Assembly (NCBI RefSeq): GCF_024298845.1
Contig: NZ_CP101158.1
Coordinates: 1 to 64,000, forward strand
Length of the DNA: 64,000 nt
DNA from: Natronosalvus amylolyticus
GTDB taxonomy: Archaea; Halobacteriota; Halobacteria; Halobacteriales; Natrialbaceae
Direction: 5' to 3'
Part shown: in pieces, positions 43,951-64,000 of the stretch
How the letters are laid out: each line of letters opens with the position of its first letter
How positions within the stretch are numbered: position 1 is the stretch's first letter
Position numbers and translations under genes: made by a program
The notes under the pieces: model-generated
Seen by the model: only the letters and a program-made list of their open reading frames with translations
Told to the model about the DNA's origin: nothing
The model's database searches: none

Positions 43951-44979
43951 CTACTCGAGTACGTCCTCGAAATCCATCAACTGCGTCGTTGTCACCTCAT
44001 ACGTTCGCCCACGTTTCTGGCCGTGTAACTCAACGATATCGTAGTGCTCCATCTTCTGCAAGTAACCAGTCACCGTTCGTTTCACCACTGGATCGCGAAC
44101 CCGCTGCTCGTACTGCTCGTATATCTCACCGATGGATTGCTCGCCCCCTTCGACGAGGATTTGATACAGAACCCGCTGATCGGCGGTGAGTTTCGAAATC
44201 GTCGCGCGCAGTAACTCTTCGCGAGCGTCACCCAACACGGACTCGATATCTTCTTTTCTGACACGCTCGCCACCACGTCGGTCGGCGTGCTCGAGTGCGT
44301 TTTTCAAAATTGCAATCGCAAAGCGGGCGTCCCCTCCAACACGGTCGGCTATCACCTCCAGATGTGGCTCGCTGATCACCTCCCCACGGGTGGCCGCCTC
44401 AGTTCGCTTTCGGAGGATGGACACCAACTCATCCTGCGTGTACTTCTTGAACTCCACGGCGGGGTAGCCAGCCAGTCGGCTATGCACCCTCGAGTCCAGC
44501 CGTGAGTAGAGGTCTTCGCGCTCGTTTGCAATCAACAAGAGCGTGATGTGAGGCATTTCGTGCAGCGGTTTCAGTAGGCGGTCATCCTCGAGTTGGTCTA
44601 CTTCGTCGAGGACGACCACGTAGGGATGGTCGACTTCGGCTTTGAGCTTCGCAATTAGGTCGTCTTTGGGCTCGCCACGCCGTCTGAAAATGTCGTACCC
44701 CTCGAGAACACGCTTGAGGGTGGCTCCGTACTGGTAGTTCGCCCAACAGTCGATGAGGGTAGTTTCGATCTCTGGTGAGCTAGCTTCCAGCCGCTCGAGG
44801 AGGAACTGTGTCGTGTGGGTCTTCCCGACGCCCGTGGGTCCATGAATGAACGCACCGTCGACGCGCTGGTTGTCGGTGATTGGCTCGAGGACCTCCGAGA
44901 GATAGTTGATTTGATCGTGTCGATGGAGGATCTCCGCTGGCTGGAAGTCAGCCTGGAGGACCTCCGAATTGGTTATCAT
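43951..44979 (-). CDS. Orc1/Cdc6 family initiator, third copy
   Basis: A 342-residue AAA+ protein with Walker A IHGPTGVGKTHTTQF, Walker B VVVLDEVDQLEDD, sensor LLLIANERED and a C-terminal winged helix (VKRTVTGYLQKMEHYDIVEL). It shares LDEVDQLE with the 39225 copy, suggesting a common origin distinct from the origin-linked copy. The promoter region has GGTAATATTAAG about 20-30 bases upstream. No origin boxes seen nearby. Confidence 0.9.
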   Translation of the reverse strand: MITNSEVLQADFQPAEILHRHDQINYLSEVLEPITDNQRVDGAFIHGPTGVGKTHTTQFLLERLEASSPEIETTLIDCWANYQYGATLKRVLEGYDIFRRRGEPKDDLIAKLKAEVDHPYVVVLDEVDQLEDDRLLKPLHEMPHITLLLIANEREDLYSRLDSRVHSRLAGYPAVEFKKYTQDELVSILRKRTEAATRGEVISEPHLEVIADRVGGDARFAIAILKNALEHADRRGGERVRKEDIESVLGDAREELLRATISKLTADQRVLYQILVEGGEQSIGEIYEQYEQRVRDPVVKRTVTGYLQKMEHYDIVELHGQKRGRTYEVTTTQLMDFEDVLE

Positions 44980-48270: not shown

Positions 48271-48271
48271 A
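48257..48271 (+). promoter_or_regulatory. GCAACACCCCAAGCA box
   Basis: ACAACACCCCAAGCA (preceded by G) whose final A is the first base of the ATG at 48271. Confidence 0.72.
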
Positions 48272-48969
48272 TGACTACGAACACGAAATCCTCGAGAGCG
48301 ACAGCCAAAGCTTCAGCTTCAGCGTCGACCTCTTCATCGTCACAATCATCCTCCCCCTATCCACGCCGAAACTGGTGGGGTGAAGACGTCGATGGCACCG
48401 ACACTGACACGAATACGGAGACGAGCGAGCCACAGCCGGTCAACTACGAACGCGAACGAGCGGCCTGGATCGCCCACCGAATCCTGAAAGAGACGGCCAC
48501 GTTGGCCTGCCCGATTACGCTGAACGAACCGCCAAATAACCCGGCTGCACTGTGGCAGTGGCTCGAGCACGGCGAAGCCGACAGCGGGCATGACCCATCG
48601 GCGCTGCATCGGGCGAACGAAGTCATCGAGTTGACTGACGCCGAGTACTGGGTGCCCTGTGAGGATAGCGACGACCTCGCCAACGGGTATGGCCCACATC
48701 CCAGTCGGGTAAACCTCGAGTATGGCTACATTGCTGGCCCCCAGATTCTCGACCGGCCAACGGCGGCGTTCATGTCAGTTGTGAACGCGCTGTTAGACCA
48801 TTTCGAGTGGTCGCCAAAGGTTGGGTTGTCCTCGCGCGAGCGCGAGAAACTCGAGTGCCATGCCGAGCGCCTGAAACGCAACGGCGATTGGCGAGATACG
48901 GATGTCCTCGCTGAAATCGTGTATGAGGCGACGAGTGAGGGTGCAGTTTTGGGTGGTGATGACGAATGA
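48271..48969 (+). CDS. hypothetical protein, first gene of the surface block
   Basis: A 232-residue soluble protein. A Ser/Ala/Thr-rich N-terminal tail (about 60 residues) precedes an alpha/beta domain (ERAAWIAHRILKETATLA...LWQWLEHGE). Start 48271 is set by the box abutting the ATG; the frame extends upstream but without coding character. No family recognised. Confidence 0.62.
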   Translation: MTTNTKSSRATAKASASASTSSSSQSSSPYPRRNWWGEDVDGTDTDTNTETSEPQPVNYERERAAWIAHRILKETATLACPITLNEPPNNPAALWQWLEHGEADSGHDPSALHRANEVIELTDAEYWVPCEDSDDLANGYGPHPSRVNLEYGYIAGPQILDRPTAAFMSVVNALLDHFEWSPKVGLSSREREKLECHAERLKRNGDWRDTDVLAEIVYEATSEGAVLGGDDE

Positions 48970-49064
48970 GGGTTGTAGGTGGGTGTGGTCTTGAGAGGGT
49001 TGCGAGTCGGGTGAAACGAGCTGGCTGCAAGCCAGTGGTGACCAACTAAGGAGAATTTGTAATC

Positions 49065-52000
49065 ATGAGACAATCAGCGAACTCGAGAGACGAATCGCTC
49101 GCTACCAGACTTTGGAAATCGATCAACTCATCCATGCCGTCTATCACTTACAGTCAGATATTCACCATTTTGGTGGTGTTTTTGATGGTAACAAGTCTAA
49201 GTTTCTCCGCGATGGCAACAGGTGGAATGGATCGCGTGGAGGATCGGACTACCGAGTCCAGTTTATTAACACAAACTTTTTCCGAGGAGGAACCAACAGA
49301 GTACGCCGCCGTTTCTGACGGTCTTGGTAATGTAAGATTGATAGACACTTCTGATGGATCAACTATCTGGACGGCTGATGTAACGGGCTCTTTTACCGAG
49401 TCGGTCCAGATAGGACCGAATCGGGAATACGTATATATGGGTGATACTAATGGAAATGTCTATATCTTATCGTTTGATAATGGTGAAACGATCGATTCTT
49501 GGCAACCACATGCCGATACTGTGACAGATATACGAATTCCGTCAGATGGTGAAAATATGTACACTGTCGGGGACGATTCTTATTTAAGAGTGACTGATTT
49601 AAGCACTCAATCAGAGGAGTGGAGAATAAGTTTAGACGACTTTTATGTATGGTCGTTAGCTATTTCGGAGGAGCATAATTTAGCATTTGCTGGTACGTAT
49701 GGGGGAATGGTAAAGGCTGTAGACTTAGACACTCAAACTATTGAATGGCAAAGGGATGTTGGTTCCCGAACCCACGATTTATCAATATCTGACGATGAAT
49801 CGTCATTAGCAGCCGTTGCTAATCGTGAAAACATATATAATTTAGATCCAGAAACAGGGGATATTTTAACACAATATCATGATAGCAATAGTTATTTCCG
49901 AGGTGTTGGAATATCTCCCGAAGGTGACAAGACTGTTGCTGGTAATAATGACGGCTACCTCGTCGCTTTCGATAGTGACGGAAATGAACTTTGGTCAAAA
50001 ACCCCTCACACTGACTCCGTTCGAGCTGGCGCAATAACGCCAAATGGGATATATACCGCTAGCGGTGACAGTGATGTGAAAGGGTATGATAGTAGTGGGG
50101 GCGAGGAATGGACGAACTCAATGTCTAGTGAGATATGGTCGCTCGATTTGACATATGACACTGGTGAATCGATTACCGGCCAAGTAACCGATCAATCCGG
50201 CGACCCAGTTAATAACGCCACGGTCGAACACTGGGGCATCTCCGAAACCGTCTTTGACGAAAGCGCCATCGACGACCTCGAGTCAGAAATCACATCCCTA
50301 GAGCAGGACCTGAACGACCTCGAGCCCGAAGACTGGCAAACCTTCACCGACGACTTCGCCGATGCAGCGGGCTCACCGATGCTCGATCTCGAGGCCTACC
50401 GAGATGACATAGGCGACACTACGTACCCACTCGTACACGAGGAAGAGGACTGGGGCGTCGGCACCACAACCATCATCTCCTCGAGCGTCGACGACCCACG
50501 GATCACGACCGACGCCGACCAGCCAGTGATCATCTCGCTGTGGGACCCCGACGAAGGGGGCACGTTCATCGACAACCAGGTTGACCAGAGCTTCCCCGGC
50601 GCAACCACCGATGGCACCGTAGTTATCGAACAACTCGGACCCAGTGGCATCGAAGACACACGCACGGTGGACACCCGATCGATCTACGAAACCACGGGCG
50701 CTACGCCGTGGTCGACCAACGAACATCACGCTGTCCGAACCTCGCTTCCCGAAGGCGTCTACCGTGTCTACCCCGATGGCAATCCAGCAGCCAGCTACAC
50801 CTTCACGGTGGGCGAACCCGACGCAATCTTCGACTCATGGACCGCAGACCTCGAGAATCAACTGACGAATCTCGGGGACCGGGCAGACATCCTCTCGGAC
50901 GAAATCAACTTGCGCGAAAACGCCGACTTCGATCACCTCGTGAACGAAGGCATTGCCGTCAGAGAACGAACCACGACCAACGAAACGGGCCACTTCGAAC
51001 TCGAGGTCGACTCATCGGTTCGGACAGTGAACGTCCAGGCGTACAAGGCTGATGGCGAAATTCTCGAGATTATCGAATCCGCCGCCGATGGCGAGGACCC
51101 ATCACTCGATGACGTGTCGATACAAGACCTTCGTGAGTACCGTTTGGATGGCTACAACGGCTCCTTTTACCTTCCGATGGGGACCACTACGGTCGACACT
51201 ACACAGGAAGAAATCGACCCGATCGAAGTACAGGTCTACCGGTCGAACGGTTTGCCGCTTGATGATATTGACCGCTTCGAGGAACTGCAAGAGTGGCTCG
51301 AGAACGAGTTCTTCGATCAGAATCTCACCGACTTCGAAAACCAGTTTGAAGACTTGATTGAGGGCCTGGAGAACGAAGAACTGGATGAATTTTACGAACA
51401 ACTCGAGGGCTACGCCGAACACAATGACGAACTTCGCGAGCTGATCGAGGAGTTCGATGAGAACGACGACCTGGAAGACCGAATCATCGAACTGCAAGAG
51501 AAAATCGACGACTTGGAAACGATCACAGCCGCACCGGGTGACGGCGAAATCGACGACGGCCTCCTCGAGTTTTCACAGGTATTCCCAATGTCTATCGATG
51601 ACGCTATCGTGACCATCGTCTACGAGAACGGTGACGCCGAAACCGTTCCCGAAGAGTACGTCACGGTCCAATCAGCCGGGATTCTCAGCGGTGATGAAGT
51701 CGTCGTCGAGGGCTACGAAATCGACACTGACCGGGCCGTCGCAGACGTTCGCGTCCAGACGGTGGGCGAGAACCGAATCGCGACGGGCTCGAGTCCAATC
51801 CCGAATCCGGCATTCCAGGGGAGTGTCGCTGAATTGGATGCCGTCCAGTTCTCGACGCTCGCTCCCGGGCCGGACGAACGCCTCACGGTCGGCCTCACGC
51901 CTTCGGATGGCACGGAGTTCGAGCAGATCACGAGCGTCGAAGCGTTCAACGGCAACGACGAACAGATAGACGCCGAAATCACTGACGACGATCGCGTGTC

Positions 52001-52772
52001 CTTCCGGACTGACGGCGAAGGCGTCCATACGGTTCGGATGACCTACGAATCAGCTTCCGGTGACACCTTCCAGGTGACTGAACGCGTTCGCGCGGGCGAA
52101 GCACCGGGCACCGACCGGGCGGTTATCCGTGCAGGCAAGACCGCCGTTGGGCCACACGCAGTCGTGGGGGCAGACCTCGAGAGCGCCCGGATTACCGAAG
52201 CCGATGACGGCACGCTCGAGATTGACGCCATTATCGGGCAGGGAGAGAACCCACCGGGCGAACTCCACGTGATGCCCGAACGAATCCTGAGCGGCGACGT
52301 TCACGAACTCGAGATATCGATTTACGAGGGCGACCTGGAACGCCAACTCGAGGACAGCCACGTCGCCGTCCAAATTCACTTCGATAGCTACAGTGAAGAT
52401 GCTATCGCGTGGCGCGACGGTGACGCCATCTATCGCGGTGGGGATACTCGCCACGGCGAGGTACAAGAACGCGAGAGCGGCAACTCCATCTTGAGTTCCT
52501 ATACACACGATGACGGCACGATCACAATAACCGTCAACGCTGATCCGAATCGACGTGACCGGTTCCGTCACGCCATCGATCAGTACTGGCCGTCGTTCGA
52601 TTGGGACGACCTCTCGCCGCTGATGACTGACTTGCTCATGTTCCTCACGTACACGCTCGAGGCCACTGTCGAAACCACGGCTCTCGAAGCGCAGACGACG
52701 GCGACACTCGAGACGGCTACCCAACCCGTAACGACACCAGCCACCGCCGGAGCTACAGAGGTGATAGTATGA
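49065..52772 (+). CDS. giant secreted beta-propeller surface protein
   Basis: A 1235-residue protein. Residues 30-52 form a signal or anchor helix. Residues 76-365 are a WD40/PQQ-like propeller with repeated blades such as NVRLIDTSDGSTIWTADV and GNVYILSFDNGETIDSW. A carboxypeptidase-regulatory domain begins at about 366 (SITGQVTDQSGDPVNNATV). The conserved body (DWGVGTTTI, VDQSFPGATTDGT, HHAVRTSLPEGVY), a Glu-rich coiled coil (735-815) and a Thr/Ala tail follow. The first 1.1 kb is AT-rich without CTCGAG; from about 50.17-50.27 kb composition is like the flanks. AAGGAGAA precedes the ATG. The stop overlaps the subtilase start. Confidence 0.88.
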   Translation: MRQSANSRDESLATRLWKSINSSMPSITYSQIFTILVVFLMVTSLSFSAMATGGMDRVEDRTTESSLLTQTFSEEEPTEYAAVSDGLGNVRLIDTSDGSTIWTADVTGSFTESVQIGPNREYVYMGDTNGNVYILSFDNGETIDSWQPHADTVTDIRIPSDGENMYTVGDDSYLRVTDLSTQSEEWRISLDDFYVWSLAISEEHNLAFAGTYGGMVKAVDLDTQTIEWQRDVGSRTHDLSISDDESSLAAVANRENIYNLDPETGDILTQYHDSNSYFRGVGISPEGDKTVAGNNDGYLVAFDSDGNELWSKTPHTDSVRAGAITPNGIYTASGDSDVKGYDSSGGEEWTNSMSSEIWSLDLTYDTGESITGQVTDQSGDPVNNATVEHWGISETVFDESAIDDLESEITSLEQDLNDLEPEDWQTFTDDFADAAGSPMLDLEAYRDDIGDTTYPLVHEEEDWGVGTTTIISSSVDDPRITTDADQPVIISLWDPDEGGTFIDNQVDQSFPGATTDGTVVIEQLGPSGIEDTRTVDTRSIYETTGATPWSTNEHHAVRTSLPEGVYRVYPDGNPAASYTFTVGEPDAIFDSWTADLENQLTNLGDRADILSDEINLRENADFDHLVNEGIAVRERTTTNETGHFELEVDSSVRTVNVQAYKADGEILEIIESAADGEDPSLDDVSIQDLREYRLDGYNGSFYLPMGTTTVDTTQEEIDPIEVQVYRSNGLPLDDIDRFEELQEWLENEFFDQNLTDFENQFEDLIEGLENEELDEFYEQLEGYAEHNDELRELIEEFDENDDLEDRIIELQEKIDDLETITAAPGDGEIDDGLLEFSQVFPMSIDDAIVTIVYENGDAETVPEEYVTVQSAGILSGDEVVVEGYEIDTDRAVADVRVQTVGENRIATGSSPIPNPAFQGSVAELDAVQFSTLAPGPDERLTVGLTPSDGTEFEQITSVEAFNGNDEQIDAEITDDDRVSFRTDGEGVHTVRMTYESASGDTFQVTERVRAGEAPGTDRAVIRAGKTAVGPHAVVGADLESARITEADDGTLEIDAIIGQGENPPGELHVMPERILSGDVHELEISIYEGDLERQLEDSHVAVQIHFDSYSEDAIAWRDGDAIYRGGDTRHGEVQERESGNSILSSYTHDDGTITITVNADPNRRDRFRHAIDQYWPSFDWDDLSPLMTDLLMFLTYTLEATVETTALEAQTTATLETATQPVTTPATAGATEVIV

Positions 52773-54373
52773 GCCGACGCAACGAGCGACCGATTTCGAG
52801 ACGCCACTTCCTCAAAACCGGGCAGGCGCTCGCGGTCACCGTCGCCACGCTCTCACCGACTGCCTCGGCGCTTCGCTCGAGAGTCCGTGGCTGGTCACCG
52901 CCCTCGGATGCTGTCTCACACTCGAACGACCGCTATAGTTGGCTCTTCCACGTCGAGGAAGGCAAGATGGACCGTCTCGAGGACTGGATCGAACGCAAAG
53001 ACCACCGTCGCCTCGAGTCGCCCTACACGCACGCACCGACGAACCGCGTGATGGTCGTCGCCAAACCCGCCGATATCGGCGTTCGCAACCGCGACCAGTT
53101 GTTCGCGAGTGACGTACTCTCGGAAGCCTCGTGGGTACGCTCTGGCACAATCGAACTCAATCGCAAACGCCATCTGGCCGACCCAATCGACCTCGATTCT
53201 ACCCGCGACACGTCCATCCACGATACCTCGTGGGCACAACGGCGGTGGCTCAACTTCGCCGCCGAAGGCGTTCCATCGACGACGGGCGTGGCCTTCGAGG
53301 GCGATATGGAGGAGACGACGATGTTGGATTCCCGTCGCCACACAGGCGCGCTCACCAGCCACCTCGATGAATACGGCCTCGAGTGGCCCGACGCCTCGAA
53401 CGTCGCGCTCGCCGTATCGGATACTGGTATCAATGATGGCCCGACGTTCGAAGCCGACGATGGCACAACCCGGATTCTCGAGACCTCGAAAAACCACCTC
53501 GATAGCGAGACGGGCGTTGAGGCTATCACGGACGGTAACGGCCACGGGACTGCGGTGGCCTCTTACGCTGCGGCCAACTCCTCGAGAACCCACCGTGGGT
53601 ATGCACCCGACGCCCAACTGCTCGGACTGAAATCCCTGGATGATGGGGGCGCTGGTGAAACAGCCGATATCGCAGATTCGATCACCTACGCCGCCGATCA
53701 GGGCGCAGACGTACTCGTGATGAGCCTTGGATCGTTCGCCTACAGCGCAACCATCCAACGCGCACTCGAGTACGCTGTCGACTCCGGCACGATTCCGGTC
53801 GCCGCCGCCGGAAACGACCGCCAATTCTCTCGCTGGCTGGCAACGCCGGCCTCGAGCGACCACGCTATCGGCGTCGGGGCCACGACGGTCGAATCACCGG
53901 AAGACACTCTGAGTGCGTACTACTCAAATACGGGGCCACACGACGGCCTGATCGACACCTCTGGCGGGGAAACTGCCGGAGCAATGCCGACGATTGGCGC
54001 TCCGGGCTGTAAGACCGTCGCCGAAGTCGTTTCGACACGCGGCACTGTCGATCACGTCGATTACACGGGTACGAGCATGGCCGCCCCACACGTCGCGGGC
54101 GTCATTGCCCTGCTCGTAGCTCACGAGGGCCGCCTTGAGTACGAGGACGTGATAGATCGACTCCAGGCCGCCGCTTCGCCGGTTCCTAACGCCGCCGAAG
54201 AGGAAGTGGGCGCTGGCCTACCACACGTTGCCCGGACGCTCGCGGGTGTCGAAAGCGAGGAAACACAGGCTGAGGCGATGACGACCGAAGCTCGAGAGCG
54301 CGGGCTCGCGTACGACGCCCTGTCGAATTACCCGCTCACCCAGATTGCGGGCACACTCGAGTCCTGGTACTAA
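52769..54373 (+). CDS. Tat-exported subtilisin-like serine protease
   Basis: A 534-residue S8 protease. ISRRHFLKTG is a twin-arginine signal. Catalytic Asp is in ALAVSDTGIN (about residue 217), His in GNGHGTAVASYA (about 258), Asn in AAAGND and Ser in YTGTSMAAPHVAGV (about 436). The N-terminal 150 residues are likely a propeptide. It is coupled to the giant protein gene, which suggests that it matures or releases that protein, or processes recipient surface proteins; inferred. Confidence 0.93.
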   Translation: MSRRNERPISRRHFLKTGQALAVTVATLSPTASALRSRVRGWSPPSDAVSHSNDRYSWLFHVEEGKMDRLEDWIERKDHRRLESPYTHAPTNRVMVVAKPADIGVRNRDQLFASDVLSEASWVRSGTIELNRKRHLADPIDLDSTRDTSIHDTSWAQRRWLNFAAEGVPSTTGVAFEGDMEETTMLDSRRHTGALTSHLDEYGLEWPDASNVALAVSDTGINDGPTFEADDGTTRILETSKNHLDSETGVEAITDGNGHGTAVASYAAANSSRTHRGYAPDAQLLGLKSLDDGGAGETADIADSITYAADQGADVLVMSLGSFAYSATIQRALEYAVDSGTIPVAAAGNDRQFSRWLATPASSDHAIGVGATTVESPEDTLSAYYSNTGPHDGLIDTSGGETAGAMPTIGAPGCKTVAEVVSTRGTVDHVDYTGTSMAAPHVAGVIALLVAHEGRLEYEDVIDRLQAAASPVPNAAEEEVGAGLPHVARTLAGVESEETQAEAMTTEARERGLAYDALSNYPLTQIAGTLESWY

Positions 54374-54378
54374 TCCCT

Positions 54379-55242
54379 ATGACCGACAGCACACCCACCC
54401 AAATGAGCGCAAGCGACAGCCAACACCAGGGCTCTCGAAGCCGACGTGGCTTCCTCCGAACGCTCCCGACCTCGCTTACGCTGGGTACTATCGGGTCTGT
54501 CCAGTCAGCGACCGCCAACGAAGGCACCGAGTACGAGTGGGTCAATGACGGTGACTATATCGAGCGTACGTTCGACGAAGACACGCTCCTCGAGTGGGTA
54601 CCGTTCCTCAATATCTCGAGTGACGCCCGCCGCAAATTCATCGGCCTGTACGGGTTCACCGCCCGATCACCGGATCACGATACCGACGCCCACTGCTTTT
54701 GGGCGCGGTACACTCACCAAGAGTCGGCAGCCGATGATATGGGATTCTGGGACGAAGCCGCTGGCTGGATGAGCTCAGATTCTCACCTTTGGGATCACGA
54801 GCCATCTACGATTTTCACCGATAGCCAAACCGGTGAGTTCCGGAAGGCAATCGCCACGGGCTACCATCACTACCCACTCGAGATATCGGCGATGAACGCA
54901 CCACTGACACAGTTCTACGGCACTCGAGATAGCCACCTACACCTCAACGTCGTCGACCCGTGGCACCACTATACGGTTGACCATAATGAGCAGGGCCAGG
55001 ACCCAACTTATTTCGGGCGCTTTGAATCGTTCATCGCGAACCGCGATTCGTGGGAGGAGCAGAACATCTTCAAAAACTCGAACCCACTGGCAATCGACAA
55101 CCCGTGGGCGCTTGCAGATGGCCGGGCCGATTCCTGGTGGGACGAAAGCACTCGTGACGCGCGTGCAGCCCGCATCTGGGCCTACCTCGGCCTACGCGGG
55201 GCCGGTGACGTTGACTCGAGTGTCCTACCAGCCCTCTACTGA
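54379..55242 (+). CDS. Tat-exported protein
   Basis: A 287-residue secreted protein with twin-arginine signal (GSRSRRGFLRTLP) and mature domain rich in His, Trp and Asp (TDAHCFWARYTHQ, YHHYPLEIS, DPWHHYTVDHNE), suggesting metal binding. No family recognised. It starts five bases after the subtilase stop. Confidence 0.75.
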   Translation: MTDSTPTQMSASDSQHQGSRSRRGFLRTLPTSLTLGTIGSVQSATANEGTEYEWVNDGDYIERTFDEDTLLEWVPFLNISSDARRKFIGLYGFTARSPDHDTDAHCFWARYTHQESAADDMGFWDEAAGWMSSDSHLWDHEPSTIFTDSQTGEFRKAIATGYHHYPLEISAMNAPLTQFYGTRDSHLHLNVVDPWHHYTVDHNEQGQDPTYFGRFESFIANRDSWEEQNIFKNSNPLAIDNPWALADGRADSWWDESTRDARAARIWAYLGLRGAGDVDSSVLPALY

Positions 55243-55379
55243 AATCATGATCCAAACACTACATCCGAGATACTCAGCAGGCGGTGTACCCCCACCTCTG
55301 AGTGATCCAACCCCACACTCGAGTACAGCCCGCTAACCAACCTCCCGATCTCGTTCCTTTTAGGAACACTCCGAATCCA

Positions 55380-56483
55380 ATGAGACACTTCACCAAACTC
55401 ACTGCCGTGTTCATGCTGCTCGTCGTCGCGATGGCGGCCATGACCGGCTCCGTTGCAGCCGCAGAATCACCCGTAATCACTACCGAAAGCGACCTCGACG
55501 AAGGCGTTACCGTCCAGAACTTCAACGCCTCGAGTGAGCAAACCTCAACACTTCAGTTCGAGACGGACACGACCGTCGACACTAACTCCGTGTCGGTGAC
55601 GATCGAAGCCCAAAACGGTACTCACTACGACAAAGACGACAACTACGCCGACTACGAACTTGTCGAAGAGAATAACGTCGATGGCAACGACGTTCACGCG
55701 TTCAACATCGGCCACGACGACCTCGAGACGGTGCCGATCGACGCCAACGGCACGACCGATATCGACATCACGGTCGCACACACGTACACTGACACCGAAG
55801 GCAACACGGTCACCGACGAGACGACCATCACCGTAACGCTCGAGGCGACCAACGAGCGAACCGTACTCTTCGTGAACGAGGAAGCGCTCGAGAATGACGA
55901 CGTTGGCCCGGAGATCGACGTTGACGAGTACGAATCGCCGTGGTACTCAAGCGATGACGACACACCGGACACCTACCACATCGAAGACGATCTCGCCATC
56001 GACGGCGCGAACACGACGGTCTACGTGTTCTTCGACCACGATGACATGGCTGAGGCGTTCGACACCGAAGCCGATTCGGAGTCGTTCATCTCGGATCTGA
56101 CGTTCTTCGATACCGATGAGGAGACCGTCTACCGCGTCTACGCCGACTCGCCCGGTGACGCGACCGACGCCGACGAGGATACCTACATGCTGGTTCACAG
56201 CAACTCGCTGGAACTCGTCATCGGTGACGAGTACGACGGCGAAGAGTCCCTCGAGGGCCACGTTGGAAGCCACGCACCTGGCGACCTCGATGACGTTGGC
56301 TTCTGGGACCTCCAGAGTACGTACTTCGACCTGCAAGACATGAGCTTCCTGAGCCTGGACTTCGCGTCGACTGATTTCTGGGAGTCGCTCTGGGATGCGC
56401 GCTCGGCTAACGGCGGGCTGCTGCCCGTCCTGTCCGTGATGGCCGGTGGCATTGCCGTGACCCGTCGCCGTCCGGGGGCCTAA
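55380..56483 (+). CDS. secreted protein with C-terminal membrane anchor
   Basis: A 367-residue protein. Signal peptide TKLTAVFMLLVVAMAAMTG, an acidic Asp/Thr-rich extracellular part, and a C-terminal hydrophobic helix ending in basic residues (LPVLSVMAGGIAVTRRRPGA), like haloarchaeal surface proteins anchored at the C-terminus. ATG 55380 is chosen because the signal peptide starts there. Confidence 0.75.
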   Translation: MRHFTKLTAVFMLLVVAMAAMTGSVAAAESPVITTESDLDEGVTVQNFNASSEQTSTLQFETDTTVDTNSVSVTIEAQNGTHYDKDDNYADYELVEENNVDGNDVHAFNIGHDDLETVPIDANGTTDIDITVAHTYTDTEGNTVTDETTITVTLEATNERTVLFVNEEALENDDVGPEIDVDEYESPWYSSDDDTPDTYHIEDDLAIDGANTTVYVFFDHDDMAEAFDTEADSESFISDLTFFDTDEETVYRVYADSPGDATDADEDTYMLVHSNSLELVIGDEYDGEESLEGHVGSHAPGDLDDVGFWDLQSTYFDLQDMSFLSLDFASTDFWESLWDARSANGGLLPVLSVMAGGIAVTRRRPGA

Positions 56484-56490
56484 ACCTACG

Positions 56491-56757
56491 ATGAGCCAGC
56501 GAACACAGGCACTAGGCCGTGTGTGGTCGCTACTCTGGCAGTTCACAGTTGGGTACGTCCTCGCTTTGATCATCGGGATTATCGCGATGATTTGGGCGAT
56601 ACTCGACTTGCTGTGGCAACTGATCAGTGGCCGGAACGATTTCTCCGAAGACTCACTGCCCGCACAGTGGGTCTCGAGGACGATTTCGTGGAATGCTACC
56701 CAAACCATCTACGGTTTGACAGGCGGGGCCGATAGAAAATGGCGACCGCTGCCCTGA
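56491..56757 (+). CDS. small membrane protein
   Basis: An 88-residue protein with a membrane region (VGYVLALIIGIIAMIWAILD, about residues 22-45) and amphipathic flanks. It starts seven bases after the previous stop. Part of the series of small membrane proteins in this block. Confidence 0.62.
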   Translation: MSQRTQALGRVWSLLWQFTVGYVLALIIGIIAMIWAILDLLWQLISGRNDFSEDSLPAQWVSRTISWNATQTIYGLTGGADRKWRPLP

Positions 56758-56853
56758 CCTGACGAAACCAGTTTTCGCGGTTGCCCGTTTGGACACCACT
56801 CACCAGTCGTGAGCGTGAGTAGTGCGTCAGTTCGACTCTGACGGCGGGCACTT

Positions 56854-57294
56854 ATGGCAACGACCTCAAGCAATGCCAGTTCCAACCCATCCCAGACTGA
56901 CCGCCTACCTCAAGATGGCTTCGAGGCCACGCTCAAAGAGACGGGCGTCCGGCTGTCCGGTCTTACCCGACACGACGCCGTGACTCGGCGCTACAAACCG
57001 CTGGGCGGGTACACTCGCTTTTCGATGAGCGAACCGTTCGAGACGCTTCGGGATGCAATCCACCTCGAGTCTCGACTTCGACTCAAGCCACCGGGAGCGT
57101 TCAAACCCACGGCTTCAACCCGTAAAGCTCGCGTGTGGGAAGCCTACGGTCATACGGTCACGCTTCGAAAGCCGGACCTGTTCGGTTCGTGGACGCTCAC
57201 CGTCAACGGCCAGTCACGACTCGAGAGTGTCGAGCGACTCGAGGCGTTCGAAGCCGCCGCCGAAGCAATGTTCGAAATCGTCGAGCGACAGTGA
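56854..57294 (+). CDS. hypothetical protein
   Basis: A 146-residue soluble, basic-to-neutral protein (TRHDAVTRRYKPLGGYTRFS) of strand-rich pattern with a helical end. Probably cytoplasmic within the envelope block. No family recognised. Confidence 0.6.
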   Translation: MATTSSNASSNPSQTDRLPQDGFEATLKETGVRLSGLTRHDAVTRRYKPLGGYTRFSMSEPFETLRDAIHLESRLRLKPPGAFKPTASTRKARVWEAYGHTVTLRKPDLFGSWTLTVNGQSRLESVERLEAFEAAAEAMFEIVERQ

Positions 57295-57300
57295 CCGGCC

Positions 57301-57447
57301 ATGCCGGGCAAAGACAAAGGCGGCTGGTACGGCGACTCTCGAGGCCACTCGGATGCCGCCCACCAACGATACGAAAACCGAGTCCAAACGTGGCTTCGCC
57401 GTGTTCGCTGGAAACTCGGCGACCTCTTCGGGCGGCTCAAACCCTGA
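57301..57447 (+). CDS. 48-residue basic mini-protein
   Basis: From the ATG at 57301: starts MPGKDKGGWYGDSRGHSD and ends with a basic amphipathic helix (RVRWKLGDLFGRLKP). It fits neatly between coupled neighbours. The same opening style recurs at 63813 (MPDKDD). Possibly membrane-associated. Confidence 0.6.
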   Translation: MPGKDKGGWYGDSRGHSDAAHQRYENRVQTWLRRVRWKLGDLFGRLKP

Positions 57448-57460
57448 TCCAAATTCACCT

Positions 57461-58249
57461 ATGAGATACAACACACCCAAACACGTAGCCGTCGCTCTCT
57501 TACTCCTGGTTTCAGTGCTGACAGTCGCCATGCTCTTGGCGTCGGCACCCGCCGTTGCGGAGACGACCAACGAGAGTGACGGCTCGCTGTTCGACGACCT
57601 CTCCGATGGGGAAACACAGACTCTCGAGACGGGAGAGGATGAGGAACCGGAGGGCTTCGCGGCTGTCCAACAGACTATCGAGGATACCGTCATCACGACG
57701 TACACACTGTTTCGGGGCTCAACAGCGGGCCTCTATGACCGCGTGCAATACGAAGCCGGTCAGATCAATCCGTTCGCCGAACCCGTAGACGTCGGCCATC
57801 AGGCTAACGAGACGGTCATGCTTGTGAACGGCAACGACGACGCGATCGTTTCCTATCTGAACAACCAGACCAACGCCGCACCCGATGGCGACCTCGAGTA
57901 CCACCAGTTCACGCTCGTGGGCGAAAATAGCGATGGCGAACCCGTCGAAGAGACGTTCGATGTCGGCCTCGAGTACGATCACGACGCCGAAGAATACGTG
58001 ACGGTCGAAGCCGCTCGAGAGAGTACGCACGAACCGGATGAAGAACACGTCCATAAGGGCTTCCTCGCAGAAGAGACCGCTGGTGAAACCGTCTACCTCC
58101 TCGAGAACTTCGTCTACGATGACGAGCCAATCGATGAGGAATACATCGCCCGCTCGACAACGCGCTATGGTGGCCTTTTCGGGTCGTTCTTCGAAAGCAC
58201 GCTCCTCGGTGATGACCTCGAGTACATCGATGACGGTGATTTCGAATGA
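57461..58249 (+). CDS. secreted protein
   Basis: A 262-residue protein. Signal peptide VAVALLLLVSVLTVAMLLA, then a very acidic extracellular domain. It has phrases similar in spirit to the 55380 protein (TVMLVNGNDDAIVSY versus TYMLVHSNSLELVIG), so the two may be distant relatives. The ATG at 57461 is set by the signal peptide; the stop overlaps the next gene (ATGA). Confidence 0.72.
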   Translation: MRYNTPKHVAVALLLLVSVLTVAMLLASAPAVAETTNESDGSLFDDLSDGETQTLETGEDEEPEGFAAVQQTIEDTVITTYTLFRGSTAGLYDRVQYEAGQINPFAEPVDVGHQANETVMLVNGNDDAIVSYLNNQTNAAPDGDLEYHQFTLVGENSDGEPVEETFDVGLEYDHDAEEYVTVEAARESTHEPDEEHVHKGFLAEETAGETVYLLENFVYDDEPIDEEYIARSTTRYGGLFGSFFESTLLGDDLEYIDDGDFE

Positions 58250-58617
58250 GCCGTCTCAAATCCGCCGCTCGATGGCCGTTCGCAGTCACCCGACAGCACC
58301 TCGGAAACATCTGGGCCGTCTTACAAACTGTCTCACTGGGTGACCTACTCCCGCCGTGGCTTCGTGAAAATATCCGAGACACCTGGAAATGGCTGAAACA
58401 ACAGGTCCCGAACGTCGTCGGCTATCGGGCAACGCCGTACGAGCAGATGGTTGCCAGCGTTGCGCTAGCCCTTGTGATGGTCTTAGCTAGCCTCGGGATA
58501 CTGACGTGGTTGGCACTCGTGATGATCGTCCCGTTCCTCGTGGGTGCAGCCCGCCTCAATCCGGTGGTCGATCGGGCGTGGCCGCTCGCCGACACAAACG
58601 GAGGTGAGCCGGTCTAA
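58246..58617 (+). CDS. membrane protein
   Basis: A 123-residue protein. An amphipathic N-terminus (RQHLGNIWAVLQTVSLGDLL) precedes a hydrophobic stretch (MVASVALALVMVLASLGILT...LVMIVPFLVG) likely crossing the membrane twice. Coupled to both neighbours. Confidence 0.65.
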   Translation: MSRLKSAARWPFAVTRQHLGNIWAVLQTVSLGDLLPPWLRENIRDTWKWLKQQVPNVVGYRATPYEQMVASVALALVMVLASLGILTWLALVMIVPFLVGAARLNPVVDRAWPLADTNGGEPV

Positions 58618-58922
58618 TGCGCTGGGTTCCAAACCTCGAGTTACGTCGCCGGCTTCGGTCGGGCACACTGCTCACGTTCCGTGGGCTGTCGATCGTCGCC
58701 TTCGTCGTGATCATGGGATTGCTCGTGGCGCTCACGCTCCCAACCAGCCCCGTTTTCGCCGGCATTCTGGCGACGTTCATCCTGTTTTTCATGCTCCGAG
58801 CTATGATGCCCGTCGAGAAGATCGATGCCGCCGTGAACGCCCTGCTAACGGGCGAAGCGGGCGAACGCGCGTATCTCTGGCTCGAGAACCGAGTCTCGAG
58901 ACTCACTGGGTGGTTCCGATGA
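58617..58922 (+). CDS. two-helix membrane protein
   Basis: A 101-residue protein with two membrane helices (about residues 16-40 and 42-60) between basic ends. The start follows directly on the upstream stop (TAATG). No family recognised. Confidence 0.65.
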   Translation: MRWVPNLELRRRLRSGTLLTFRGLSIVAFVVIMGLLVALTLPTSPVFAGILATFILFFMLRAMMPVEKIDAAVNALLTGEAGERAYLWLENRVSRLTGWFR

Positions 58923-59947
58923 CAAAAGACACCAAAACCAACACACGCGCTCGAGTGCTTTCCGTCACGCTCGCTGCGTTACTCGTGGCCTCTCTGGTCA
59001 CGTTCGGCTTAGGACTCTCGAGTACGGCACTCGCAGACACCGACGCAGACGCCGTGTGTGAACCAGAGCGCTCAATCACCTACGATGAGTTCCGTACCGA
59101 CCAGGCGACCGTCGACGAAGCCAACCACACTGGGTCGACAGACGTGAGCAAAGACAACACGCTCGCGACCATTGAGGGGGGTGAGGCGTTCCACCGCGTC
59201 ACGCTCGAGAACCCTAACTCCTACTGTGTCGAATTCGAGTTGCAAATCTCTGAGGAGCTGGTAACGCCATCGACGATTGGCACGATATCGGGGAGCGAAC
59301 TCGAGGGGTTTGAGGATTACCCAACGCCCAAAGCGTACTGGGAGTCAACCCATAGCTTCGACCAAGACGAGACGTACACGCGGATCACGGTGACGATGCC
59401 TGCCGAAAGCCAGGCACTGTTCGCACCGTCGAAAGCTCGCGTCGAAGGCCTCTCGTGGATCGGTGAAGGCGCTGCTGCCGCCGAAGGCTTACAGGATCGA
59501 CTCGTTAGCTCACTCGGATTCGGGTCGGACCTCGAGACACGAGAGTACACACTCGAGGGCAACGATAGCGAGACGGTCACAATCGATCTGGTAAACCCAC
59601 AGACGGGTGAGCCACTCGAGGATTGGCACGCCACCTACACGGTCGATGGCAGTCACGATATTCCACTGGATAGTGGCTCTGACGAACCGGTGTACTACCG
59701 CGAACTGACTGACGACGATGGCGACGTCACGGCTATCGAGATCACGTTCAACGAAGCCGCCGAACTCGAGTTCACGGCTGATCCACGTGTTCGGGACACC
59801 CTGAGTTACGACCTCACGTCCTTCGAGGCTGACCTCCGGGCCTTAATGGGGAGTATCAACCTCCCGTTCATGGTCGTCGGTGAGCCAACCACCATGCCGC
59901 TGCCGACACTGACGGATGTTACAACCGGATTCGAGGTGAGTCCATGA
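58919..59947 (+). CDS. secreted surface protein
   Basis: A 342-residue protein. Signal peptide LSVTLAALLVASLVTFGLGL; the mature part is beta-rich and acidic, with two Cys (DAVCEPE and NSYCVEF) that might form a disulfide. C-terminal hydrophobic patch SINLPFMVVGEPT. Coupled to both neighbours. Confidence 0.72.
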   Translation: MTKDTKTNTRARVLSVTLAALLVASLVTFGLGLSSTALADTDADAVCEPERSITYDEFRTDQATVDEANHTGSTDVSKDNTLATIEGGEAFHRVTLENPNSYCVEFELQISEELVTPSTIGTISGSELEGFEDYPTPKAYWESTHSFDQDETYTRITVTMPAESQALFAPSKARVEGLSWIGEGAAAAEGLQDRLVSSLGFGSDLETREYTLEGNDSETVTIDLVNPQTGEPLEDWHATYTVDGSHDIPLDSGSDEPVYYRELTDDDGDVTAIEITFNEAAELEFTADPRVRDTLSYDLTSFEADLRALMGSINLPFMVVGEPTTMPLPTLTDVTTGFEVSP

Positions 59948-60183
59948 TCAGCGCCGATCACGTTATCTGGGGGATTGCCATAATCGCTGTTGGAATTACG
60001 TTCCTGAACCCTGGTGGCCTCATCATCGGCCTTGCTATCGCGCTGTTCGTACTCGGTGGCCGGTACGGACTCCCGTTTGCTCGAGACGTCTACACGGCCC
60101 GCCAGAGCGGTGTCTCGAGCGCGAAAGTTCGGCAGAAAGCTCGCGATATGGGCAGTGGCCGAAACCGTGAGGGTGAGCCCTAA
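59944..60183 (+). CDS. small membrane protein
   Basis: A 79-residue protein with two hydrophobic helices (WGIAIIAVGITFLNPGGLII and IALFVLGGRYGLPF) and a basic C-terminal tail. Coupled both sides. Confidence 0.65.
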   Translation: MISADHVIWGIAIIAVGITFLNPGGLIIGLAIALFVLGGRYGLPFARDVYTARQSGVSSAKVRQKARDMGSGRNREGEP

Positions 60184-60464
60184 TGGCGATGAACCAACTC
60201 CTGACCGTCTTACTCGCTATCGGCGTCGGCCTGGCGATTGGGCATCTGGCCTTCTCGTCTCGAGGCGATTCATCGGTGATCCTGTACAGCGCCTACGGCA
60301 CGCTTTCGATGACCTTCGGCATGGTGATCGGGGCGTTCCTCATCCTCGGCGGGTTTCACCGAACGGGCGTCGTTGTCCTTGCAGTGACGTACTTCCTCGC
60401 TCGAGGCAACTACGACCGATTCCAGAGCGAGCGAGATATGCGAGCAAAAGCTGCCAATCGGTGA
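60183..60464 (+). CDS. small membrane protein
   Basis: A 93-residue protein with hydrophobic segments at about residues 5-22, 40-58 and 62-72 and a charged C-terminal end (RFQSERDMRAKAANR). TAATG-type start overlap. A T6 run follows its stop (about 60470), a possible weak terminator. Confidence 0.65.
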   Translation: MAMNQLLTVLLAIGVGLAIGHLAFSSRGDSSVILYSAYGTLSMTFGMVIGAFLILGGFHRTGVVVLAVTYFLARGNYDRFQSERDMRAKAANR

Positions 60465-60571
60465 GCGGCTTTTTTCATCGACCGGATTTTCAAAATGCTT
60501 CCAAAGACATTCAAAACCCAGATTCATCGACCCAGAGCGCGCGAAACGCCAGATCCACAGCCACCGCCAGA

Positions 60572-60583
60572 TGTAGTACTACA
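60572..60583. repeat. TGTAGTACTACA palindrome 6
   Basis: Perfect copy, extended to 16 bp GATGTAGTACTACATC (60570-60585) exactly as copy 1, in the only sizeable gap of this part of the envelope block and 27 bases before the ATG at 60611. Confidence 0.72.
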
Positions 60584-60610
60584 TCGACAAGCCGGAGGGG
60601 GTGAGGCCTA

Positions 60611-60853
60611 ATGCTCCAGGCCCACTCGAGGGCCTCGGATGTGAACGACGGCATCCAGTTTTACGTGGCCGTTCGGGTTGCGACGGACTCCCAATTCCCG
60701 TTCGACCCCGGCGACCCGTGTGTGATACGCGTCGTCGACGACGCCCTCGTGATTTCGCCGCCGGATGACCCTCGAGACAGTATCGACTTGCCGCCAATCG
60801 ATGACGACATTCGCCGTGCAGCGACCCAATCCGAATCACAATCCCAATCCTGA
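60611..60853 (+). CDS. hypothetical small protein
   Basis: An 80-residue acidic protein (FYVAVRVATDSQFPFDPGD) with a Ser/Gln tail. The palindrome upstream suggests it begins a separately controlled sub-operon. Confidence 0.58.
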   Translation: MLQAHSRASDVNDGIQFYVAVRVATDSQFPFDPGDPCVIRVVDDALVISPPDDPRDSIDLPPIDDDIRRAATQSESQSQS

Positions 60854-60864
60854 TTCAAATTTCA

Positions 60865-61461
60865 ATGAGTACAACCACCAATCCCGATTCCACAGAACAC
60901 TCGCCGAAACAGAGTGAGAAACAACTTGACCGACTGCGAGACAAACTCGGTGACGCCGAGTTCATCAACGACCCCGAACTGACCGAACGCGTAAGGCAGT
61001 GGGAGAAACGCTCGTTCGAACTCCCAGCAGGCGACGTTGAAGAGCATATTGAGTCCCAGATCACGGACCTGAAAGCCAGCGGCTACGCTATGTTCGCTCG
61101 CGAGGGGCTCGAGGATGCGACCGACGAATTCCCCGATGCGTGTAGCAAATGCCCACACTACGGCGGGGGCTGTCCAATCGCCACCCAGCGTGTGGTTCGC
61201 CAGGAGGTGAGCCGTATCGTAACGCAGGCCGAGACGGATTCGGCGTTCCGACGCGAAATGCGCTCGCTTGCCGAAGACTATCGCTGCCACCGGATACCGG
61301 AGTGGCTTTCGGAGTGGTCGAATCGCTACACCGAAATCATCCAAGAGGGCCTCGAGTTACAGCGCGAAATCGACAAGCAAATCCAATCGATGGCGTCGAA
61401 AGGCGCACAGAAACGCGTCGACCTCCGGGCTGACGACGATGAGAACGGAGGCCACCGATGA
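60865..61461 (+). CDS. Cys-cluster helical protein
   Basis: A 198-residue cytoplasmic helical protein with CSKCPHYGGGC (about residues 93-103) and another Cys in DYRCHRI, which could ligate zinc or an iron-sulfur cluster. Coiled-coil ends (KQLDRLRDKLGD and GLELQREIDKQIQSM). Coupled to the next membrane protein. Confidence 0.65.
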   Translation: MSTTTNPDSTEHSPKQSEKQLDRLRDKLGDAEFINDPELTERVRQWEKRSFELPAGDVEEHIESQITDLKASGYAMFAREGLEDATDEFPDACSKCPHYGGGCPIATQRVVRQEVSRIVTQAETDSAFRREMRSLAEDYRCHRIPEWLSEWSNRYTEIIQEGLELQREIDKQIQSMASKGAQKRVDLRADDDENGGHR

Positions 61462-62501
61462 ACTGGGCGCTAATCGCCGTTGCGATCCTCGTTTCCGCCG
61501 CTATCGTATTCGCTGCTTGGTGGCTCTCGCGTTCGATGCGTGACGACACAACCGACGCTACAGAGCGCGTCCAACAGGACTCGAGCAATCCCGATCGGTC
61601 GGGTGACCCAGCCCACAAGAAGGGGTCAACGAGAGTCCCGATACGCGACCGGGCGAAGGCCACCTCGAGAACCGCAAAGGTGTTTTTCGGTTCACTCGCA
61701 CTGCTGGGAATCATCCTCGCTGTCTTCGCCTACCAGACGCTTCGGACGGGCTCACCTGCGGAGGTGATGTTCTCTGATCAACTGCTAACGGCGCTCAAAG
61801 TCGGTATCGGCGTCGTCGCGGGTATCATGATATCGAATATCGGCCAGCGGTATGAGGGCCAACTCATCAACGTCTACGAGGGTGACGATGGCAACACGCG
61901 CGAAGAGATTATCCCCATCGACGTTCGCAACGTCGGCAGTGACGAAGGTAACCCAATCGTTAAAGAGTACTCCCAAAGCCGTCTATTCGGCGTTTTCCGA
62001 CGCTACAAGCACTGTGCTGAAGAGCCAGAACTCGAGAACACCCATCGAGCGCCGGGGAAGGTGATCGAACACCAAATCCCCGATCACGCCTTCCAGGTCG
62101 ACTCGACGACGTGGGTTAACCTCACGACCAAACAAAACGATACCGAGAACCCCGATACGCGACCGGATTACGTCTACTCAAGCCCGGTCGAACTCTCCTA
62201 TGAGAAATATATCGACATGAAACAGAAGATTCGCCGTCAGGACACTAAAATGCGAGGGCTCGAGGCCACGCTCGCCACCGTCGAACGCGAATTCTCGAAA
62301 ATCGAGCGCCTCCTCCTGAGCGGTGACCACAAAACCGAACAGGACGTTCGCAACCAGATCAAAGAAATCGCTCAAATCCTGGGGAGCGTCTCTGGCTTCG
62401 GCGAGACGATGAACCAAGAGGCCCGGTCAACCTACGTCGATACTGGCGGGAACGGGCAACAACCCCAACAGGCTCACCCAGACGGGGGTGAGCGACGATG
62501 A
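61458..62501 (+). CDS. three-helix membrane protein with cytoplasmic coiled coil
   Basis: A 347-residue protein. Membrane helices at about residues 3-22, 73-95 and 108-126 are followed by a soluble domain and a coiled coil (MRGLEATLATVEREFSKIER, about 272-291). The layout could link membrane components to a cytoplasmic ATPase. No ATP-binding motif of its own. Confidence 0.68.
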   Translation: MNWALIAVAILVSAAIVFAAWWLSRSMRDDTTDATERVQQDSSNPDRSGDPAHKKGSTRVPIRDRAKATSRTAKVFFGSLALLGIILAVFAYQTLRTGSPAEVMFSDQLLTALKVGIGVVAGIMISNIGQRYEGQLINVYEGDDGNTREEIIPIDVRNVGSDEGNPIVKEYSQSRLFGVFRRYKHCAEEPELENTHRAPGKVIEHQIPDHAFQVDSTTWVNLTTKQNDTENPDTRPDYVYSSPVELSYEKYIDMKQKIRRQDTKMRGLEATLATVEREFSKIERLLLSGDHKTEQDVRNQIKEIAQILGSVSGFGETMNQEARSTYVDTGGNGQQPQQAHPDGGERR

Positions 62502-63811
62502 AGCCCGCCTGGACTCGAGCGCTTACGCTCGCACTCGTGGCTCTATTTCTGTGTTCGATGGCCGTTCCGCTGGCCGCCGCCGACACGAGTGCTGGCCCAT
62601 CGATCGATCACGCTCACAGCTCTGTTTTCGCTCAAGAAAACAACGAGACAGCGACGAACGAAAGTGACGCCGGTAACGATACAGAGACAGACACCGATTC
62701 GGACGAATTCGAGGATAGCAATGTCTCGGACGGCGAACCCGGCCTCGCTGATCGGGTACGCGTCTCGCCTGTCTCACTCGGTGACGAAGACTGGCTCGAG
62801 ACAACGACTGAGGATTCAGACGAAGCGTTCAACACCACTGGCCCGTTCGCTCTGTTCACGCTTTCAGAACCCGCTGAGAACGTTCGGATAGCCCAGAGTG
62901 ACGCCGAGGCCACACTGCTCGAGGGCGACACCACAATCCTCGTCGAGTACGAACCCGGCGCGGCTGGTTCCTCGAGTACGTTCTTCGAACTCGAGGTTTT
63001 CTTCCCCGATAGCTCTACCAGTTCGATCGATCTCTATGCGACGAGTACCGAAGTCTCGGCAGCAGCAGCGGAACTCGAGGCCTACGGCGGGCTTATCGAC
63101 GATATGCAAGACTCCGCCGAAGAGGAAGGCTACGACACCGACCCAAGCGGGCTCGAGGACTACTACGATTGGCGCGTCGAACGCGCTACGCTCGTTGATT
63201 CGTTCCTCGTCGAACGGGCGGCCCAACTCCTTATCTTGGCGATTATGGCCGCCGAGAACCCGCTCGTGTGGATTCTCATACTGCTCTCGATTGCCGTGGC
63301 CGCCTACCGCCGCGAACAGGCTCACGGCTGGATTCTCGACCGGATTGAGAACGATTCGGGTGAAACAGCGAGACAGCAAGAGCAACTTGAGGCAGAATAC
63401 CGCCGCGACAAGCAGACGGCCAATGAGGAATTCATCGGCGAACTCCCACAGATCAACGACCAACAGGCGGTGTACTGGAACGATAGCTTCGATATCCACA
63501 GCACGCTCCAACTCGCCGAACTCGCACTCCGTGGTCCGCGAGACCTCGAAATCTCTAGTGACGCGCAACCGGATGGCGGGCAACCGGAATCAGCAATCGC
63601 CGAACTCGAGGCTGAAACCATCCACAATTCGTGGCTGGCCGAAGTGTACACGACCAACCGTCTGAGCGGCCCGCGTGAGGCACTCTCCTGTCTCAAAGCC
63701 GCCCTGATCCGCATGGAAGCCACCTACTCGATGGGTCACCGCTACTCCGGAGTCAGAAACGACGTCGAACAGCTACTCGATGAGATCGACGAACTCGAGC
63801 GAGGATTCTGA
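62498..63811 (+). CDS. secreted/membrane protein with cytoplasmic helical domain
   Basis: A 437-residue protein. Signal peptide (LALVALFLCSMAVPLAAA), acidic extracellular domain (to about residue 240), a membrane helix (LLILAIMAAENPLVWILILL) and a charged cytoplasmic coiled-coil tail ending in a helical repeat-like region. A single-pass topology with both sides structured fits an envelope-spanning complex. Confidence 0.72.
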   Translation: MKPAWTRALTLALVALFLCSMAVPLAAADTSAGPSIDHAHSSVFAQENNETATNESDAGNDTETDTDSDEFEDSNVSDGEPGLADRVRVSPVSLGDEDWLETTTEDSDEAFNTTGPFALFTLSEPAENVRIAQSDAEATLLEGDTTILVEYEPGAAGSSSTFFELEVFFPDSSTSSIDLYATSTEVSAAAAELEAYGGLIDDMQDSAEEEGYDTDPSGLEDYYDWRVERATLVDSFLVERAAQLLILAIMAAENPLVWILILLSIAVAAYRREQAHGWILDRIENDSGETARQQEQLEAEYRRDKQTANEEFIGELPQINDQQAVYWNDSFDIHSTLQLAELALRGPRDLEISSDAQPDGGQPESAIAELEAETIHNSWLAEVYTTNRLSGPREALSCLKAALIRMEATYSMGHRYSGVRNDVEQLLDEIDELERGF

Positions 63812-63812
63812 A

Positions 63813-64000
63813 ATGCCAGACAAAGACGACACGAACGAAAGTGAGCGACCGCTCCCTGCTACCGTCACAGAAATCGACTCTCGAGACACACCTACAGAGG
63901 GGACACTCGAGGACACAGGGACGAACAACAGAGACGAAACCTCGAGTACATACGCAGACGGGCGCTCGTGGACAGGACGCGCTCGAGGCGGCCTCTCGAG
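63813..64000 (+). CDS. start of a further gene (incomplete)
   Basis: From the ATG at 63813, two bases after the previous stop, an open frame continues to the window end (at least 62 residues), beginning MPDKDDTNESE. Acidic, disordered N-terminus. Function cannot be judged. Confidence 0.55.
   Translation, partial: MPDKDDTNESERPLPATVTEIDSRDTPTEGTLEDTGTNNRDETSSTYADGRSWTGRARGGLS

Follow-up and report, generated by a model that had tools for sequence, protein, structure and literature searches.

Gene content of the block

The stretch of DNA analysed here (the window) consists of the initial 64 kb of contig C3, a 104,885-bp contig in the 4.2-Mb, five-contig genome of a Natronosalvus strain (family Natrialbaceae). 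Codon-based gene calling across the whole contig revealed a near-unbroken series of rightward genes from 48271 to 65522. The first-pass annotation had described about 18 such genes between 48271 and 64000; the start, the series and the number were borne out, while the last gene runs on beyond the window to 65522. The total of 18 comprises 17 called genes and one, encoding an 88-aa protein with a single transmembrane (TM) segment (56491-56757), that was missed by the gene caller. It occupies the position of ORF10 in the plasmid pR1SE and was counted as a block gene because homologues lie directly after ORF9 in four other elements (L065, L067, L071 and L010). Every reading frame of the block is uninterrupted and, judged against its relatives, complete in length. 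Genes are named below by their pR1SE homologues, with the numbers of ORF6-9, 17, 21 and 23-25 fixed by the published survey (PMC10818511) and the intervening numbers counted along the annotated pR1SE record; unless stated otherwise they lie on the plus strand, and occurrences are given among 35 collinear loci described below.

The first part of the block encodes mainly exported proteins. It opens with a 232-aa protein (48271-48969; 28% identical to pR1SE RS00025, E 2e-11) whose homologues precede ORF6 in 15/35 loci and also in free cassettes, so that this gene moves with the ORF6-9 cassette. The ORF6 homologue (49065-52772; blastp E 8e-66) is the giant surface protein anticipated at first pass, with 1235 aa, a signal peptide and an N-terminal beta-propeller identified by propeller matches. 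The expected Tat-exported protease is the ORF7 homologue (52769-54373; E 2e-36), an S8 (subtilisin) enzyme (PF00082, E 2e-38) that carries the Tat motif SRRHFLKT and retains the catalytic motifs SDTG, GHGT and GTSM. Further exported proteins follow, as had also been noted, including a second Tat-type protein homologous to ORF8 (54379-55242; E 3e-22; motif SRRGFLRT) and the ORF9 homologue (55302-56483; E 2e-6), a predicted coat protein present in 32/35 loci. Beyond the 88-aa protein, a flexible stretch contains a gene for a 146-aa soluble protein (56854-57294) that is found in 12/35 loci, pR1SE not among them.

The second part is dominated by membrane proteins. It begins with homologues of ORF13 (RS00065; 57353-58249; one TM segment, E 6e-31, 32/35 loci), ORF14 (RS00070; 58246-58617; small membrane protein, 54% identity, E 1e-42), ORF15 (RS00075; 58617-58922; two TM segments, 50%, E 2e-24) and ORF17 (58919-59947; 45%, E 2e-82), the last an anchored ectodomain protein whose assignment is also supported by a tree. 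Next come the small membrane proteins ORF18 (59944-60183; 56%, E 3e-24, 33/35 loci) and ORF19 (60183-60464; 47%, E 3e-20), the small soluble protein ORF20 (60611-60853; 56%, E 7e-17) and ORF21 (60865-61461; E 9e-51), which has four invariant cysteines (C93, C96, C103 and C141). The series closes with ORF22 (61458-62501; E 3e-96), a membrane protein with a C-terminal coiled-coil-like region, ORF23 (62498-63811; 49%, E 4e-122), with an exported ectodomain, a TM segment and a cytoplasmic tail, and ORF24 (63780-65522; 48%, E 3e-162), which is cut by the window end at 64000. These last three are the larger membrane proteins of the block, in agreement with the earlier description. The small membrane proteins had been overcounted: five, rather than at least six, are under 130 aa (starting at 56491, 58246, 58617, 59944 and 60183).

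The window contains no ATPase gene downstream of the block's start, as reported, and the search beyond 64 kb for a HerA/FtsK/VirB4-type enzyme that had been proposed ends at the next rightward gene, an ORF25 ATPase homologue of 826 aa located 2.7 kb past the window (contig positions 66666-69146; 54% identity and E 0 to pR1SE). Between ORF24 and ORF25 lies an antisense gene for a PAS-HisKA-HATPase sensor histidine kinase (65533-66537, minus strand), which is absent from this position in pR1SE.

Several other features of the contig were recorded. A homologue of ORF26 (70652-72235, minus strand; 56% identical to that of pR1SE), a gene located beside ORF25 in several elements, has a weak PHROGs match to topoisomerase (TOPRIM-like) over residues 201-410, and two fragments of a further copy of this gene lie at 73304-73649. 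By sequence, 78029-83903 holds a minus-strand type I restriction-modification system in the order R, S, M, and 87830-89977 encodes a family B DNA polymerase. The leftward half of the plasmid (14375-42516), with two DNA methyltransferases, a PCNA-like clamp, MCM, two Cdc6-like ATPases and an exonuclease VII large-subunit protein, was read as a region of its own, devoted to replication and modification. Just before ORF6, a search for origin-like features gave neither tandem nor strong direct repeats.

The block matches the plasmid vesicle genes of pR1SE

In a translated search of plasmid records, the top matches for the ORF24 and ORF25 proteins were pR1SE (KX687704) and pR1SE2 (KX906370), at 48-49% and 54-57% identity, respectively, and each protein also matched 11-12 other haloarchaeal plasmids. 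pR1SE is a plasmid of Halorubrum lacusprofundi that spreads, without cell contact, in plasmid vesicles (PVs) that it encodes itself (PMC10818511). Sixteen of the 18 block genes, together with ORF25 and ORF26, match pR1SE one-to-one with order and strand kept (E 2e-6 to 0). The suggestion of virion or vesicle formation therefore pointed in the right direction, but the machine is not an undescribed one: according to the accounts given in PMC10818511 and PMC10117752, the PV system was described in 2017 by Erdmann et al., and a 2023 survey identified 40 further pR1SE-like elements, termed apHPVs (PMC10818511).

An element is assigned to the apHPVs if it has five or more of six markers, namely ORF6, 8, 17, 21, 23 and 24 (PMC10818511). 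The Natronosalvus plasmid has all six, arranged in the order that defines the class (E 3e-22 to 3e-162 against the pR1SE proteins), as well as the two syntenic clusters, ORF6-9 and ORF17, 21 and 23-25, with order and strand kept. Further sequence features of the class were also found. ORF7 is an S8 serine protease by domain and catalytic motifs; the clusters are separated by a flexible stretch (56484-57352) with genes common to few elements; a gene for a Cdc6-like ATPase, one of the replication genes (MCM or Cdc6/Orc1) that most members have near the core, lies five genes ahead of the block (43951-44979); and ORF25 is an ATPase of the HerA/VirB4/packaging type, with a fold assigned from a low-confidence model of a relative 43% identical to it. 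The element thus shares with the apHPVs its markers, clusters, flexible stretch, haloarchaeal replicon and Cdc6-like gene. Natronosalvus is not named among the apHPVs in the main text of the survey (PMC10818511).

Similarity to pR1SE and pR1SE2 is not uniform along the block. While ORF25 and ORF23-24 are 54-57% and 48-49% identical and ORF17 is 45% identical, ORF6-9 are only 24-31% identical to their pR1SE counterparts and are nearer to those of Natrialbaceae elements, which makes the function of this part less certain. The Natronosalvus plasmid further differs in the extra gene at 56854, the histidine-kinase gene before ORF25, and a second, solitary ORF6 homologue at 19425-22673 (minus strand). 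The latter encodes a 1082-aa protein with a signal peptide that is 33% identical to the main copy and has a different N-terminal region; two other genomes likewise have a solitary ORF6 and a full element on one contig (G009, L091, and G226, L092).

From these comparisons, we consider the block, with a probability of about 0.88, to be the region that directs PV production and transfer in a haloarchaeal plasmid of the apHPV type, most likely organized as two modules. By analogy with pR1SE, whose vesicles have been demonstrated, the Natronosalvus plasmid would be expected to produce vesicles as well, as judged here from its genes.

Conservation extends beyond the published core

To define the extent of the unit, profile hidden Markov models (HMMs) derived from the window's proteins were applied to ten annotated plasmids, seven genome loci and twenty genome stretches. 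The order ORF6-7-8-9-13-14-15-17-18-19-20-21-22-23-24-25 is kept in 35 loci representing 33 distinct elements, several of them cut by contig or locus ends. Collinear homologues on this scale place the block far beyond chance, and the proposal that the genes form one machine, which was to stand or fall on conserved synteny in other elements, survives. ORF21-24 occur in 35/35 loci, and ORF13, ORF14, ORF18, ORF19 and ORF20 each occur in 30-33. The core defined by the survey consists of ORF6-9, 17, 21 and 23-25 plus one unnamed gene (PMC10818511); more genes are thus conserved than this core contains, probably because clustering at 15% identity misses small membrane proteins. One Halorussus plasmid carries the element twice (L028 and L051; G383:C5:17421 and 119900), as in a dimer or duplication.

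Among 391 sampled Halobacteria genomes, ORF25 was detected in 27 and ORF6 in 40, including 26 of the 27 with ORF25. A sample of 393 genomes across the phylum gave three ORF25 matches, all within the order of the host, and so provided no evidence for spread beyond haloarchaea. Neither cassette exchange (see below) nor an enlarged core was reported in the main text of the survey (PMC10818511) or in the other open-access literature searched; these two points are what is new here, the system itself having been described already.

Protein features on the probable packaging side

A single gene covers both ORF15 and ORF17 in six distinct elements; it encodes the two-TM segment, a further hydrophobic segment and the outside domain of ORF17. 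This fusion came to light on inspection of iterated HMMs that, starting from the small ORF15, had strayed into ORF17. Proteins joined by such fusions generally function jointly, and the natural fusions suggest that ORF15 and ORF17 belong to one complex. The four cysteines of ORF21, in the pattern C-x2-C-x6-C followed by a more distant C, are invariant in 35/35 loci, and this sequence pattern suggests a zinc or iron-sulphur site.

ORF25 carries an invariant but atypical motif, A-x-PR-x-GKDST, at the expected position of Walker A in 11 sequences, with invariant R-E-L-K and S-T-Q-K motifs downstream. The best fold matches to a predicted model of the 43% identical relative (pLDDT 57) were the hexameric DNA translocases HerA and TrwB, in line with the published structure comparison (PMC10818511), and a winged helix was matched at the C terminus. 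ORF25 differs from these translocases in its own Walker A variant, in the C-terminal winged-helix match and in lacking a sequence match to solved structures; the HerA family profile (PF01935) found seven other proteins in the genome, but did not detect ORF25. Given the atypical Walker A and the low confidence of the model, hydrolysis by ORF25 is not assured. Two further candidate matches were discarded: the sole match of an ORF25 profile to solved structures was MotB-like and spurious, and the best match of an AlphaFold model of an ORF24 relative (pLDDT 55), a winged-helix protein at E 0.14, was not significant.

The two halves of the element have different histories

Gene-by-gene comparison of homologues indicated that the best match to each gene in 48271-56483 is always a Natrialbaceae element (from Haloterrigena turkmenica, Natronosalvus halobius or Natrinema DC36), whereas each gene from 57353 on finds its best match among the four elements of the Halorubrum pR1SE group. 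Between 56483 and 57353, one gene is nearest to elements of other families and one occurs mainly in Natrialbaceae. From these comparisons and the trees, we place the junction at 57295-57352, between upstream genes that are nearest mainly to Natrialbaceae elements and downstream genes nearest to the pR1SE group.

Trees of 28 elements were combined with AU tests of alternative groupings. For ORF6-9, the window falls in an 11-row clade (100/99) that does not include the pR1SE group, and uniting the two was rejected (p 0.001); for ORF21-25, the window and the pR1SE group are sisters (100/100), and pairing the window with N. halobius was rejected (p 1e-9). Separate trees of ORF7 and of ORF17, computed with a mixture model, give the same picture. 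The conflicting trees and the AU results thus reject a single shared history for the two halves: the element is a mosaic, with ORF6-9 belonging with Natrialbaceae elements and ORF13-25 with the Halorubrum pR1SE group. The plasmid of N. halobius (NZ_CP099999), from the same genus as the window's host, illustrates this. It contains an exact copy of the element of genome G250, which is grouped in one genus with the window's genome, and the host was assigned to Natronosalvus from that grouping. The plasmid has the same gene order, the nearest ORF6 (43%) and the second-nearest ORF7 (45%), but its downstream half is of another clade (27-42% over the large proteins), and its ORF15 and ORF17 are fused.

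Two further congeneric pairs exhibit a swap with a sharp boundary at about the end of ORF9. One same-genus pair (G089/G279, loci L068/L070) is 91-99% identical over ORF13-ORF25 vs 27-49% over ORF6-9, and the two DNAs begin to match again between ORF9 and ORF13; for Natrialba asiatica and N. aegyptia the values are 93-100% and 43-49%, and the match resumes 24 nt before the ORF9 stop. Another pair at equal identity in the downstream half (93%) retains 85% in ORF6-9. The origin of the surface half and the packaging half in two lineages suggests a surface half that can be exchanged as a module. Ten ORF6 loci from genomes lacking ORF25 were also examined. Nine of them hold a cassette in which ORF6 is joined by one or more other cluster 1 genes (two of these cassettes are partial), with sets of ORF6-8 or ORF6-9 among them, and the tenth is a solitary ORF6. 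Such ORF25-free cassettes could serve as a reservoir for exchange, while the survey regarded them as possible remnants (PMC10818511).

The mosaic might instead be an artefact of faster evolution in ORF6-9 with no exchange involved, and ORF6-9 identity is indeed generally below that of the downstream half. Faster change explains part of the low identities, but not the well-supported conflicting topologies, their AU rejection in both directions or the abrupt jumps in DNA identity in two congeneric pairs, and we regard this explanation as very improbable next to cassette exchange.

Alternative readings of the block

The first-pass annotation had also raised conjugation-like transfer. Plasmid movement through cell contact by a conjugation or type IV secretion-like apparatus, in which ORF25 would be the coupling protein, would account for the TrwB match of the ORF25 relative, which is as good as that to HerA, and for the resemblance of the published ORF23 model to pilus-assembly parts (PMC10818511). 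As regards VirD4/VirB4-type ATPases, ORF25 has this TrwB-like fold match, from a low-confidence model of a relative, and no family match at the sequence level. Against the conjugation reading, a search of the whole genome for the suggested relaxase with the PF03432 family found none, the block has no matches to conjugation-family Pfam entries, all homologous plasmids found in PLSDB are typed as non-mobilizable, and pR1SE transfer needs no cell contact (PMC10818511); we give this reading hardly any credence. The idea that the element is an enveloped virus, whose virion module the block would be, is only marginally less implausible. The particle-like lifestyle of pR1SE, the combination of surface proteins with a packaging ATPase and the fact that a HerA-like protein is the best match among viral models would all fit, but the ten block proteins tested gave no informative PHROGs matches, relatives of ORF24 were not found in phage records nor those of ORF25 in IMG/VR, and no capsid gene is known for the pR1SE group (PMC10818511). 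The difference between a PV element and a virus is in part one of definition.

It is also conceivable, although we consider it unlikely, that this is a decayed or domesticated copy in which the genes are intact but vesicles are no longer made. The histidine-kinase gene inserted between ORF24 and ORF25, the nearby fragments of a second ORF26 copy, and a plasmid far larger than the core might be taken as signs of this. The open, full-length frames of the block and the preserved motifs of the protease and of ORF25 argue against decay, and we retain the PV region as our interpretation.

A two-module model for plasmid vesicle production

In this PV region, module 1 (48271-56483; ORF6-9 and the preceding gene) would make the vesicle surface, exported via Sec or Tat and composed of the giant ORF6 protein, the ORF7 subtilisin, which probably matures other proteins, ORF8 and the coat protein ORF9. 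Module 2 (57353-69146; ORF13-ORF25) would build a conserved membrane assembly from the ORF15-ORF17 complex with its outside domain, the small membrane proteins, ORF22-24 and ORF25, and the HerA/TrwB-like ORF25 may recruit or pump plasmid DNA into the budding vesicle. We infer these roles from the homology, gene order, mosaic, fusion and fold match described above, with PV localisation and infectivity taken solely from the pR1SE literature. In purified pR1SE PVs, the core products were detected with the exception of ORF25 (PMC10818511).

Module 1 is exchanged as a cassette, and is therefore probably the host-facing, fast-changing part, with module 2 as the packaging machine; a role for the ORF6-9 cassette in host range may follow from this. 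Infection by pR1SE is equally efficient irrespective of host N-glycosylation, on which vesicle stability does depend (PMC10384203), a result that bears on the coat. The survey had suggested that the two gene clusters differ in function (PMC10818511), and the natural hybrid described here, along with the two swapped pairs, makes this split testable, with one half expected to determine surface and entry and the other packaging. First handles on the latter are offered by the fusion of ORF15 with ORF17 and by ORF21 with its four cysteines. More generally, and at slightly less than even odds, PV elements may be two-part machines in which a conserved packaging module acquires its whole ORF6-9 envelope cassette by exchange between lineages, including those of different haloarchaeal families, with extra solitary ORF6 genes of the same replicon providing alternative surface proteins. 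This would be the PV counterpart of host-range module exchange in phages, in elements that sit between plasmids and viruses.

A separate observation concerns pR1SE and pR1SE2, which are 98-100% identical in most block genes and 65% identical in ORF25 (L007 25251-27767 vs L008 22641-25139). The pR1SE2 ORF25 is 98% identical to the H. saccharovorum version, indicating that ORF25 is also exchanged singly.
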